A stretch of DNA of 64,000 nucleotides from assembly GCA_958295775.1 (NCBI GenBank), contig CATQHC010000003.1:124001-188000 (forward strand), written 5' to 3'. Below are positions 54,936 through 59,912 of this stretch, piece after piece. The notes under the pieces are model-generated. The model was not told the origin of the DNA. It saw only the letters and a list, made by a program, of their open reading frames with translations, and did not search any database. The translations under genes and the position numbers were made by a program. Source of the stretch: Chloroflexota bacterium. Its GTDB lineage: Bacteria > Chloroflexota > UBA11872 > VXOZ01. The stretch's first letter is position 1, and every line of letters starts with the position of its first letter.

Positions 54936-55919
54936 CTACGGAAGGCTGTCGTACTCCGCCTGTTCGTCTACCGGATATGGCGGGCGTTTGCCTTGGATGA
55001 CGTCAACGAGGCACTCGAAGGCCATGACGACCATGGCGTGGACGGACTCTTGCGTCACGCCGGCCACGTGGGGGAAGGGCAGAATCTTCGGGTGGTGCAA
55101 GAACGGATGGTCCGGCGGCGGCGGTTCTACCGAGAACACGTCGGAGGCCGCGCCGGCCAGTTGTCCCGCGTCGATGGCGGCCACCAGCGCCTCTTCATCG
55201 ACCAGACTGCCGCGCGCGGTATTAACAATGTAGGCGCTGGGCTTCATGCGCGCTAGCAAATCGGCGTTGACGAATTTCACGGTCTCCGGCGTGCTCGGCA
55301 GGTGGACCGAGATGAAGTCCGATGCCGCAAAGAGCGCTTCCGGCTCCGCGAACTCCACGCCGAGGTCTGCCGCCGCCTTTTCATCCCACATCACGTCATA
55401 GGCGAGCACGCGCATGTTGAAGCCCCTCGCCCGGCGGGCCACGGACTTGCCGATACGGCCGAGACCCAAGATGCCCAGGGTCTTATTGCACACGTCCACG
55501 CCTTGAATGCGGTGGAATCCGCCATCGCGGGCAATGGCCGCGTGCTCAACGAGCTGGCGCGCCAGCGCCAGAATCATCGCCATGGCGTAATCGGCAACCG
55601 TATCGTTATTCGCTCCGGGCGTGATGGTAATCCAGACACCGTGCCTGGTGGCGGCAGCGACGTCGATCTGGTCGTAGCCCACGCCGACGCGGGCCACGAT
55701 CTTGAGCTGCGGATGGGCGGCAAAGACGCGCTCCGTGAAGTGGTCCGAGCCGGCGACAAAGGCCACGACACCGTCGAGATTGTCAATTAATTCCTGTTCC
55801 GTGAGCGGACGAAACACGTCGAGCGGGGGCGCCAGCTCCAAGCCGGCATTGCGTAGTGTGTCCCAATGGGGACCGGGAAGATCAAGGATAGAACGTGCAC
55901 CGATGAATACCTTTGCCAC
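54936..55919 (-). CDS. D-3-phosphoglycerate-dehydrogenase-like 2-hydroxyacid dehydrogenase
   Basis: 327 residues, NAD-dependent. Seen: KIVARVGVGYDQIDVAAATRHGV, the Rossmann GxGxxG in TLGILGLGRIGKSVARR, the catalytic Arg in YIVNTARGSLVDEEALVAAI, Glu in FSVEPPPPDHPFL and the catalytic His in ILPFPHVAGVTQESVHAM. There is no regulatory ACT domain, so it is the short form and may act on other 2-hydroxy acids. GTG start with GAAAGG upstream. It abuts the nuclease gene (6 bp gap) on the same strand, probably by chance. Confidence 0.92.
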   Translation of the reverse strand: MAKVFIGARSILDLPGPHWDTLRNAGLELAPPLDVFRPLTEQELIDNLDGVVAFVAGSDHFTERVFAAHPQLKIVARVGVGYDQIDVAAATRHGVWITITPGANNDTVADYAMAMILALARQLVEHAAIARDGGFHRIQGVDVCNKTLGILGLGRIGKSVARRARGFNMRVLAYDVMWDEKAAADLGVEFAEPEALFAASDFISVHLPSTPETVKFVNADLLARMKPSAYIVNTARGSLVDEEALVAAIDAGQLAGAASDVFSVEPPPPDHPFLHHPKILPFPHVAGVTQESVHAMVVMAFECLVDVIQGKRPPYPVDEQAEYDSLP

Positions 55920-56217
55920 CAGTTACCTACCTTTCTCGCTAGCGGCGACATAGCGCAGCGCTGCTCTACATTAAGCGTGTACAAGGCCTGCGGCCTGCCC
56001 GGCAAGCGAGGCACGGCCGCGCGGCAGAGACCCCTCGTGCCGGGATATCCCGGCATTCAGATCGCATGCAAAACGCCGTGAAGTAGCGGTTCCGGCCGAG
56101 TGAGTTGACGCTTTGCAGAGCAAAATAGTACGGTCATAATTGAACCTTGCGGCATGCCCGCGCATGCCTCTCTCCAATGATACACGCGCACAATGAACGA
56201 CGTTTAGGATATTGAGG

Positions 56218-56694
56218 ATGAGCACATCGGAATCAGACAGCAAGCCAAGCGAAAAGAAACGGAAACGGCGGGCCCGCTACGGCGAAGAAGCAATCGAGTC
56301 CGTAGAAATCCGTTACTTTCCGAATCCCGAGCCCAAGCGGGACTACTACGTGCAGATTCGTTTGCCGGAGTTGACGTTCAAAGACCCGGTCTCCGGCTAT
56401 CCGGACTTCGCCGTAGCCACCATGGTGTACGTGCCCGATGCGCGCATCGTAGACCTCAAGACGCTGAAGCTTCACTTCAATAGCTTTCGCGACAAGTACT
56501 TTTCCCACGAGCGCATCACCAACGAACTCTTCGATGAACTGCTGGCGGGCTTGAAGCCCCGCGGCGCGCTGCTCATGATGGAGTTCAATCCCCGCGGCAA
56601 TGTCTCGACTCGTGTGATCACCACCACGGACGATGCGTTCTTGGAAAAAGCGCAGCACGTGCTTGAGATGCCGGTGACCCGCCCCGCCTTTTAG
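56218..56694 (+). CDS. QueF-like T-fold protein without the catalytic cysteine
   Basis: 158 residues. The body aligns with short-form QueF (7-cyano-7-deazaguanine reductase): RDYYVQIRLPE, PVSGYPDFA (Asp63 of the pair kept), SLKL-like TLKLHFNSFRDKYFSHERI with the His-Glu pair (H97, E98), and LKPRGALLMMEFNPRGNVSTR. But at the nucleophile position, where B. subtilis QueF has SLCP, this protein has FKDP, so Cys is replaced by Asp56. Without that Cys the nitrile thioimide cannot form, so preQ1 synthesis is unlikely. An N-terminal Lys/Arg-rich tail precedes the fold. No other queuosine gene is nearby. Confidence 0.82.
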   Translation: MSTSESDSKPSEKKRKRRARYGEEAIESVEIRYFPNPEPKRDYYVQIRLPELTFKDPVSGYPDFAVATMVYVPDARIVDLKTLKLHFNSFRDKYFSHERITNELFDELLAGLKPRGALLMMEFNPRGNVSTRVITTTDDAFLEKAQHVLEMPVTRPAF

Positions 56695-57335: not shown

Positions 57336-57451
57336 GTCAGCAGCACCACACCGTGGGTATCGCAAACGTGGTGAGCAGTCTAAAGTATCTTTTGGTAGCG
57401 TTCGGTGAAGGGGCGTACCGAACCCGAACGGATCTTAAGGAGGAGGGATCA

Positions 57452-58456
57452 ATGCGTATTACCAGATACCCTACCCAATCACTAGATAGGACGTTCCTGT
57501 ACAGTTCCCTTGTCCAGGTCGCCCTTGTGGTTGCGGTAATCGTTGCGCTGTTGGCAGTAACCCTGCCGGCGCGCATCGCTTCAGCGGCACAGTCCAACGC
57601 ATCTGCGGGGCAGATGGAAGTTGTGATAGTGCCGCCTCGTATTACCATCGCCCTTGGTGACGATGGTTCGCTGCAGTCGGTAACGACTAGCGTATTCATT
57701 GGCGGCACGGCTACGCCGGTGAGTATTTCAGCGAAAGACCTAGCCGCGCTGGGCGCGTTCGGTATTCCTGTACCGGCGCTTGGCCTTGACGCCGTAACGA
57801 CCGGAATCCTGACGGGCGCTGGTGTTGAGCACATTCAGGTCGTGAAGGGTGTTGACGGCTCAATTGACGTCTATACCAACGGCGTATACACCATTGGCGT
57901 GAACCTCGGTGAGGATCAGGCGAACTACGAGCGGGTACTCAATCTGGTGGAAGGTTTCACCGGTTTTGCCATCCCCTTGAAGGACGTTGTGGTTCCCGTG
58001 GTGATTGCTTCCGGTGGCGACGTTGTGATCACGATTGGTGAGACGAGCACTCCCGTTCGCGCGGAAGGCGCAGAGTCCGGCTACGTGGCACTTGAGCAGC
58101 AAGACATCCAGTTGATGGCGAAAGCCACGGTCAGCTACGATGCCGACGGCAATCTCTCAGTGCTAGGTATGTCCGCTGCCGACCTTGGTGTGGTTGGCAC
58201 CGAACTGACCCCGGCCATAGTTGCACTCATGACGGCCAACGGCATTAGCCAGTTGAACGTCAAGATTAACAACGAGGGTCTTGAACTGGGCAGCAACGGT
58301 GAAATGCTTGCCAACGTCCGCTTGAGTGGCGTTGCCGCCGACCATGGGGTTGGGCTGGCAGTTATCAGTTCGTTGGCACCGGGTGCCGATGCACTGCTGC
58401 CGTTCTTGGACTTGCGCGATCGCATTGACGTTGACCTGACGGTGAACCTGCCGTAA
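57452..58456 (+). CDS. Exported protein with two copies of an unrecognised domain (paralogue A)
   Basis: 334 residues. Signal helix (about 18-42) ending ARIASA with a likely cleavage before AQSNA. The mature part has two related units: VPPRITIALGDDGSLQSVTTSV ... LTGAGVEHIQVVKG..SIDVYTNG (about 60-175), and ATVSYDADGNLSVLGMSA ... MTANGISQLNVKINNEGLELGSNG (about 215-300), each ending in a strand pair (VVIASGGDVVITI; RIDVDLTVNLP). The same units occur in the next gene. AAGGAGGAGGG precedes the ATG. I recognise no family. An extracytoplasmic location is inferred from the signal. Confidence 0.8.
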   Translation: MRITRYPTQSLDRTFLYSSLVQVALVVAVIVALLAVTLPARIASAAQSNASAGQMEVVIVPPRITIALGDDGSLQSVTTSVFIGGTATPVSISAKDLAALGAFGIPVPALGLDAVTTGILTGAGVEHIQVVKGVDGSIDVYTNGVYTIGVNLGEDQANYERVLNLVEGFTGFAIPLKDVVVPVVIASGGDVVITIGETSTPVRAEGAESGYVALEQQDIQLMAKATVSYDADGNLSVLGMSAADLGVVGTELTPAIVALMTANGISQLNVKINNEGLELGSNGEMLANVRLSGVAADHGVGLAVISSLAPGADALLPFLDLRDRIDVDLTVNLP

Positions 58457-58558: not shown

Positions 58559-58637
58559 TTAGAGACAACAGACAGAATCTTTGCATGATTGTTAGACACG
58601 AAACCATGTATGCATGCAAGCACAGAGAGGGAAGGCT

Positions 58638-59912
58638 ATGACCACCTGGAGACATTGGTGGGTGCCCGTACCAATTCTGTGGTTGGTCCTTGTTCTCATC
58701 GCTCTGATTGTGCTGGTAGCGATCGGTGGGGGACTCACTAAGTTCGCAGCAATTCTCTTCTTGGTGAGTTTTGGCCTGGTGTTCTCACTGCTCTATTTGG
58801 GCGCGGGGCTAGGCTACAAGGCAGGGAACCAACTAGGCGGTGGTACCGGTACCGGTCAGGCTGTGGGCATTGTCGGCCTGATCATCGGAGGAGTAGTGGG
58901 CCTGCTGGCTTCGCTCTTAATCGTTTCTACCGGCTTTGTGAGCCACGGGCTTTCCACACCATTTGCGCCAGCGCGCCTCACGAGCGCCGAACCGATCTCC
59001 GGTCCTGGCGCACCGCCCGAACGGGCGGAAGCCTCTATCGAAGTGTACGGCTTGCCTCAGGCAACCGTGCAGTTTGGTGAGGATGGAAGCGTCAGCGGCG
59101 TAGAGGTCGGCATGTTCCTTGCCGGACAGCAGTTCAATCTCAGTCTATCTGAAGGCGAACTAAGCGATCTCGGCTTGGGTGAAATCTTGTCGGCTTCCGC
59201 GATCGAATCCCTCAAGGCGGCAAACTTACAACACGTCCAACTCATCAAGGGACCGGGCGGAGATATTGATGTTTACGTAAATGGCGGCTTTGCGTTGCGC
59301 GTTTCCGTAAACTACGAGCAGGCCGCGTTGGACAAGGTCATTGCGCTGGTCAAGGGACTTGGCTATGACGTAGCTGTGCCGGATCTTGCGGTTCCGCTCG
59401 CGCTGGCGATGCTTGGCACCGTTGCTGTGGACTTTCCCATGGCGGATGGCGCAGCGGCTCTGGAGAAATTCTCCGGCGAGACGTCGCAGCCGCCTGATGT
59501 CCCCGATGCGACGGACCCGCAGTACCCGCTTTTGATTGGTACGGTTCTGAGCGCTAATGGCGACCTGCTGGTGCCTGATGTTGTTATTCTGGAAAATGCC
59601 GCGCCACTGCTCGAAGCCATTGGCTTGAACCTGAGCATGCCCGGTATGCTTCCGGCTGATACAGTGGCAGGCTTGAAGGAAGCCGGTCTCAGCACTATCA
59701 CCGTTAAGCTGGTCCCGCAGGGCCTCGACATCTATCTTGACGATGTGCATGCCATGACCGTCTTCTTGGGCGACGAAGCAACCTTGGCTAACCTAACGAC
59801 GGTTGCCACAGCCTTTGCCGGTGACGAAGTCGGCGAGATGTTGGACACCGTGATGCCCTTTATCGTGCGTCGCAACGAGGTGGCGGTTGACATCGTCGTG
59901 AACATCGAATAA
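58638..59912 (+). CDS. Membrane-anchored protein with two copies of the same unrecognised domain (paralogue B)
   Basis: 424 residues. Three N-terminal helices with a Gly-rich stretch (GYKAGNQLGGGTGTGQ) between the second and third, then two domain copies: ATVQFGEDGSVSGVEVGMF ... LKAANLQHVQLIKGPGGDIDVYVNG (about 143-230), and LIGTVLSANGDLLVPDVVI ... LKEAGLSTITVKLVPQGLDIYLDD (about 300-395), each closing with strands such as EVAVDIVVNIE. The common pattern across A and B is LxxAGhxxhxVxhxxxGhDhY.NG. GAGAGGGAAG precedes the ATG. Function unknown; it looks like an envelope paralogue of A that keeps its anchor. Confidence 0.8.
   Translation: MTTWRHWWVPVPILWLVLVLIALIVLVAIGGGLTKFAAILFLVSFGLVFSLLYLGAGLGYKAGNQLGGGTGTGQAVGIVGLIIGGVVGLLASLLIVSTGFVSHGLSTPFAPARLTSAEPISGPGAPPERAEASIEVYGLPQATVQFGEDGSVSGVEVGMFLAGQQFNLSLSEGELSDLGLGEILSASAIESLKAANLQHVQLIKGPGGDIDVYVNGGFALRVSVNYEQAALDKVIALVKGLGYDVAVPDLAVPLALAMLGTVAVDFPMADGAAALEKFSGETSQPPDVPDATDPQYPLLIGTVLSANGDLLVPDVVILENAAPLLEAIGLNLSMPGMLPADTVAGLKEAGLSTITVKLVPQGLDIYLDDVHAMTVFLGDEATLANLTTVATAFAGDEVGEMLDTVMPFIVRRNEVAVDIVVNIE

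Follow-up and report, generated by a model that had tools for sequence, protein, structure and literature searches.

The closest described relatives of the protein treated here are the unimodular QueFs, typified by the B. subtilis enzyme (4F8B; TIGR03139), which are defined at the residue level by Cys55, Asp62, Glu97 and the QueF motif E(S/L)K(S/A)hK(L/Y)(Y/F/W) beginning with Glu78, Cys55 being described as invariant and as forming the thioimide (PMC5372742); Cys53, Cys55, Glu97 and the like follow the published B. subtilis QueF numbering. A backdoor cysteine sits at position 99 or 53, with Cys53 present in 22% of unimodular QueFs, and the same survey set aside sequences without the catalytic cysteine as 'non-QueF' (PMC5372742). 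The QueF-Like archaeosine synthase of P. calidifontis (PDB 5JYX), a single-domain T-fold protein, keeps the corresponding cysteine, its conserved Cys21, and likewise acts via a thioimide (PMC5485725). A description of a natural Cys-less QueF homologue was not found in our literature search. E. coli QueF variants without the cysteine lose nitrile reduction. The C55A mutant of B. subtilis QueF has preQ0 bound (4fgc, as given in the PDB title), which indicates that ligand binding can outlast the cysteine.

Within the window (the whole 64,000-nucleotide stretch of DNA that was analysed), a 158-aa open reading frame at 56218..56694 on the forward strand encodes a QueF homologue in which aspartate occupies the catalytic position (hereafter the Asp type). 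The frame is read from the ATG at 56218, with an in-frame TTG upstream at 56212, is backed by profile matches and by strong purifying selection across six species, and has a weak and unproven sigma-70-like promoter match (9 of 12) upstream at 56112..56140 on the same strand. The protein matches the Pfam QueF model at 77.2 bits (cut-off 27.3) and passes the TIGR03139 preQ(1) synthase equivalog at 107.3 bits (cut-off 86.9), a threshold that is evidently independent of the catalytic cysteine. The nearest solved structures are those of B. subtilis QueF (4fgc, 4f8b and 5udg; E about 1e-17), and phmmer aligned the two proteins over residues 31-133 with no gaps and about 30% identity. An AlphaFold model built from 47 natural sequences reached a mean pLDDT of 88.5 and, when searched with Foldseek, returned B. 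subtilis QueF (4f8b, 4fgc) first, followed by GTP cyclohydrolase I as the second-best kind of match (probability 1.0 for both). On this model the protein has the fold of the T-fold (tunnelling fold) superfamily, as a single domain like the archaeosine synthase, and it carries in addition a C-terminal helix (residues 139-149; 56632..56664, forward strand) that is confidently modelled, kept across the genus and foreign to unimodular QueF.

The earlier note, made from the letters of the window alone, had claimed a QueF frame (P-x-S-G-x-P-D-F-A, which here reads PVSGYPDFA, with FSHE and PRG) and aspartate in an FKDP sequence at the cysteine position, and both claims are borne out. In the gap-free alignment to 4f8b, Cys55 of B. 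subtilis QueF pairs with Asp56 of the Asp type (ELTFKDPVSGYPDFA versus EFTSLCPKTGQPDFA; codon GAC, 56383..56385, forward strand), and Phe54 (56377..56379, forward strand) takes the place of the backdoor Cys53. Cys99 is also missing; with zero cysteines in the whole sequence, no alternative active-site thiol is available, and the protein falls outside the QueF-Like class, which is marked by the conserved thioimide cysteine. The retained residues include Asp63, equivalent to Asp62 of QueF (56404..56406), His97-Glu98, equivalent to the substrate anchor His96-Glu97 (56506..56511) and followed directly by Arg99, and Arg126-Gly127 of the PRG loop, equivalent to Arg125-Gly126 (56593..56598), all on the forward strand. 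The earlier reading was incomplete in that it missed the altered QueF motif, DLKTLKLH (56452..56475, forward strand), and the Cys-less relatives elsewhere that are described below. Across the genus this motif reads D-L-K/R-T-L-K-L-H/Y, with Glu78 replaced by Asp, Ser/Ala81 by Thr, and Lys or Arg at position 80. In a comparison with 113 further QueF homologues from Chloroflexota, the Asp type is changed at the near-fixed sites Cys55 (Asp), Glu78 (Asp), Ser81 (Thr), Phe51 (Leu), Thr65 (Val) and Asp106 (Glu), and keeps Asp62, Lys83, Arg90, Glu97, Arg125 and Gly126. Cys55 is present in all other complete Chloroflexota QueF homologues that were read, one Ala clade excepted, and the nearest Cys-bearing relatives have TC53xC55P where the Asp type has Phe and Asp. 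Two of the four published defining features (Asp62 and Glu97) are thus present; the other two, Cys55 (Asp in all six species) and the QueF motif with Glu78 (PMC5372742), are not, and together with the loss of both cysteines this means that the thiol chemistry is entirely gone. By the published residue definition, as read from the alignment, the protein is not a QueF.

The loss of the cysteine, taken by itself, would speak for a decaying gene or an assembly error, a reading to which we give practically no chance and which we regard as ruled out, since six independent genomes, diverging by dS of up to about 1.3, all carry an unbroken gene with this Asp, at a dN/dS of about 0.05. All six genomes of the genus, which isolate names suggest to be of sponge origin, encode the Asp type at 85-90% identity and with FKDP in every one, so the Asp is common to close homologues, and none was found outside the genus among the 41 genomes of the class searched. 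Pairwise dN/dS across the six species ranges from 0.02 to 0.07, against 0.07-0.15 for the Cys-bearing paralogue, indicating that the Asp type is under the tighter constraint.

That paralogue, a second, Cys-bearing QueF, is present in five of the six genomes (the sixth assembly is 69% complete) and in the window's genome lies at G000:C9:868185 (EFTAVCPWTGLPD), passing TIGR03139 at 116 bits. It has Gln at the position of His96 and PDT in place of PDF. In all five genomes it adjoins a transporter-like open reading frame of one family, which in the window's genome scores 107.6 bits against the TIGR00697 model for the queuosine precursor transporter; the paired genes lie at L002, 652-2085, and on L031-L034. 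This arrangement agrees with the pattern of salvage reported for YhhQ/COG1738 (PMC5372724). The earlier note had seen no queC or queD in the window, and neither QueC (partial matches of about 19-24 bits only) nor PTPS/QueD was found in any of the six genomes, the window's own included. All six encode both TGT and QueA. Queuosine formation in the genus appears to run on precursor salvage and, with TGT, QueA and a Cys-QueF next to a transporter, the queuosine job is accounted for without the Asp type. Loss of the cysteine as a consequence of lost preQ0 synthesis was considered and set aside, because QueC is also absent from many genomes that keep the cysteine, so that this loss is permissive at most.

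Taken together, the nitrile reductase function has very probably been lost from the Asp type. Both the nucleophile and the backdoor cysteine are missing, Glu78 and Ser81 have been replaced, the searches turned up no preQ0 route, and a Cys-QueF encoded elsewhere adjoins a queuosine-precursor transporter, so there is good support for the proposal that the protein does not use QueF chemistry to make preQ1. That it might still act as a preQ0 nitrile reductase, or as a nitrile hydratase, with Asp as nucleophile or general base, is improbable: the protein retains the T-fold along with Asp62 and Glu97 and scores above the preQ1-synthase cut-off, but the residue replaced is the invariant one that forms the thioimide, and five of six genomes hold a Cys-QueF besides. 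Within the QueF family we know of no case in which a carboxylate attacks a nitrile. T-fold enzymes can stand in for one another, and a weak match to GTP cyclohydrolase I (17.6 bits) could hint that the Asp type makes up for the lack of some folate or biopterin enzyme of the superfamily; this is very improbable, as that score lies below the Pfam cut-off of 27 and both FolE and FolB are encoded in all six genomes, leaving no folate gap at the FolE and FolB steps for the protein to fill.

The gene neighbourhood gives no link to queuosine, the Asp-type gene standing alone, without linked Q genes or salvage genes. On one side is a divergent D-2-hydroxyacid dehydrogenase gene (54936..55919, reverse strand), a neighbour also found in the relatives examined and with no known queuosine link; on the other, two unassigned proteins are followed by rplJ-rplL, in the same layout in the relatives read. 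No convincing Rfam element, a preQ1 riboswitch included, was found close to either the Asp-type gene or the salvage locus. The two unassigned proteins (window 57353-58456 and 58614-59912) have no Pfam match and have repeated motifs in common (IDVYxNG); in the relatives read, both are conserved at this place, with the QueF homologue on one side and rplJ on the other.

We tentatively take the Asp type to be a functional, neofunctionalised QueF paralogue that keeps the T-fold and works without covalent catalysis, a reading that is quite possible on the evidence at hand. Reduction of preQ0 by the QueF mechanism would be impossible with Cys55 replaced by Asp and Cys53 by Phe, while the fold, the Glu97 anchor and most of the NADPH-contact residues are kept. 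Glu97 may bind a purine-like (guanine-like) or pterin-like ring, NADPH could be held through the altered QueF motif, and hydride would then pass to a substrate that can be reduced without covalent activation, such as an imine, an aldehyde or a pterin C=N, while Asp56 and Asp63 would take care of the protons. This scheme as a whole, in our view the likeliest mechanism, is possible and is offered with reserve. A pterin or purine, as the earlier note supposed, is a candidate ligand that fits Glu97, the T-fold and the preQ0 held by the C55A mutant. Against the scheme, the charged residues that remain may do no more than support the fold and its assembly. Since Glu78 and Ser81 belong to the NADPH-binding motif, their change may mean that NADPH binding is lost too, in which case the protein would be a pure binding protein. 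Such a non-catalytic pseudo-reductase, serving as buffer, carrier or sensor for preQ1, another 7-deazaguanine or a pterin, is somewhat unlikely. The retention of Glu97 and Asp62 alongside a lost nucleophile and an altered E78 and S81 agrees with it, as does the binding of preQ0 by C55A QueF; a genus that appears to salvage Q precursors should contain a pool of preQ1 or preQ0, and the ammonium of preQ1 could pair with Asp56. Lys83 and Arg125, which are NADPH or assembly residues, are nevertheless invariant, and there is no genomic link to the salvage genes.

In the tree of 73 rows the Asp group falls within a clade (98 SH-aLRT) whose QueFs mostly carry Cys53 and Cys55; its stem, at 2.71 changes per column, is the longest branch in the tree, and its crown is very short. 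Rapid early change with strong constraint thereafter is consistent with a new function of the Asp type. A quick tree joined the Asp type to a Cys-less clade from phages (98 SH-aLRT), with both stems long. A horizontal origin from phage was not upheld, as the alternative tree, in which the Asp type groups with TCKCP-type QueFs of Chloroflexota, scores 7.8 higher in likelihood, and neither tree is rejected.

The phage family (L156-L164, L183-L211) comprises two dozen or more uncultured-phage contigs encoding QueF homologues without the catalytic cysteine, with the signatures TF[LIM]G-xxxQPDFA, SYER, NPRGGISS and IDSDW. On some of these contigs, genes for DNA polymerase, thymidylate metabolism or chaperonins lie close by. 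DpdL is a phage decarboxylase that acts on 7-carboxy-7-deazaguanine. The idea that the phages encode a 7-deazaguanine route next to their Cys-less QueF was followed up and not upheld, PTPS being present in just one of 15 records, many of which are fragments. Like the Asp type, the phage proteins have Phe53, Arg98 (next to Glu97) and Asp138 fixed, and Pro124 and Ser129 are mostly common to both; unlike it, they have a loop shorter by one residue and bearing Gly, keep Glu78 and Ser81 intact, and share only about 36-38% identity with it. Eight of the 59 residues that are fixed in the Asp type but seldom seen among Cys-QueFs occur in at least half of the phage proteins, compared with 10/248 for eleven other clades, a difference (Fisher p = 0.01) that is indicative only, because the clades were hand-picked and the residues are not independent. 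That the Asp-type and phage proteins form one thiol-free QueF-fold class, marked by Phe53, Arg98 and Asp138 and sharing an undescribed purine or pterin reaction, is rather unlikely. Cellular genomes beyond Chloroflexota were covered by one scan for close relatives of the Asp type, and plasmids and isolated phages yielded distant QueF homologues only (<60% identity) among the matches listed. Two of the three phage proteins tested pass the TIGR03139 cut-off and the third falls just below it, so that the NCBI equivalog model names Cys-less homologues preQ(1) synthase. Should our interpretation hold, a group of bacterial and phage proteins is misnamed, metabolic reconstructions that count queF by profile overcall queuosine synthesis, and the QueF active site can turn to other chemistry.

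A second loss of the catalytic cysteine is seen in another Chloroflexota genus, four of whose six genomes (G056, G188, G324 and G365) encode an Ala type with TCLAP and an intact Cys53 (L020/L148, L092, L093, L095), while their siblings keep the cysteine; QueC is absent in both kinds. The Ala type resembles the Asp type in having lost the catalytic cysteine in a genome without QueC, but differs in that Cys55 is the sole near-fixed site to have changed, Cys53, Glu78 and Ser81 all being intact, and judging by its sequence Cys53 could conceivably take over catalysis. In three QueC-less genomes a FolE gene lies next to a PTPS gene (G365:C188, G209:C68 and G188:C74; family f19), and these pairs would represent a pterin or a 7-deazapurine route. 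Alongside the usual TGT, seven genomes of a sister family (G006, G008, G010, G012, G014, G018 and G022) encode another TGT homologue, which scores about 300 bits and is fragmented in one of them.
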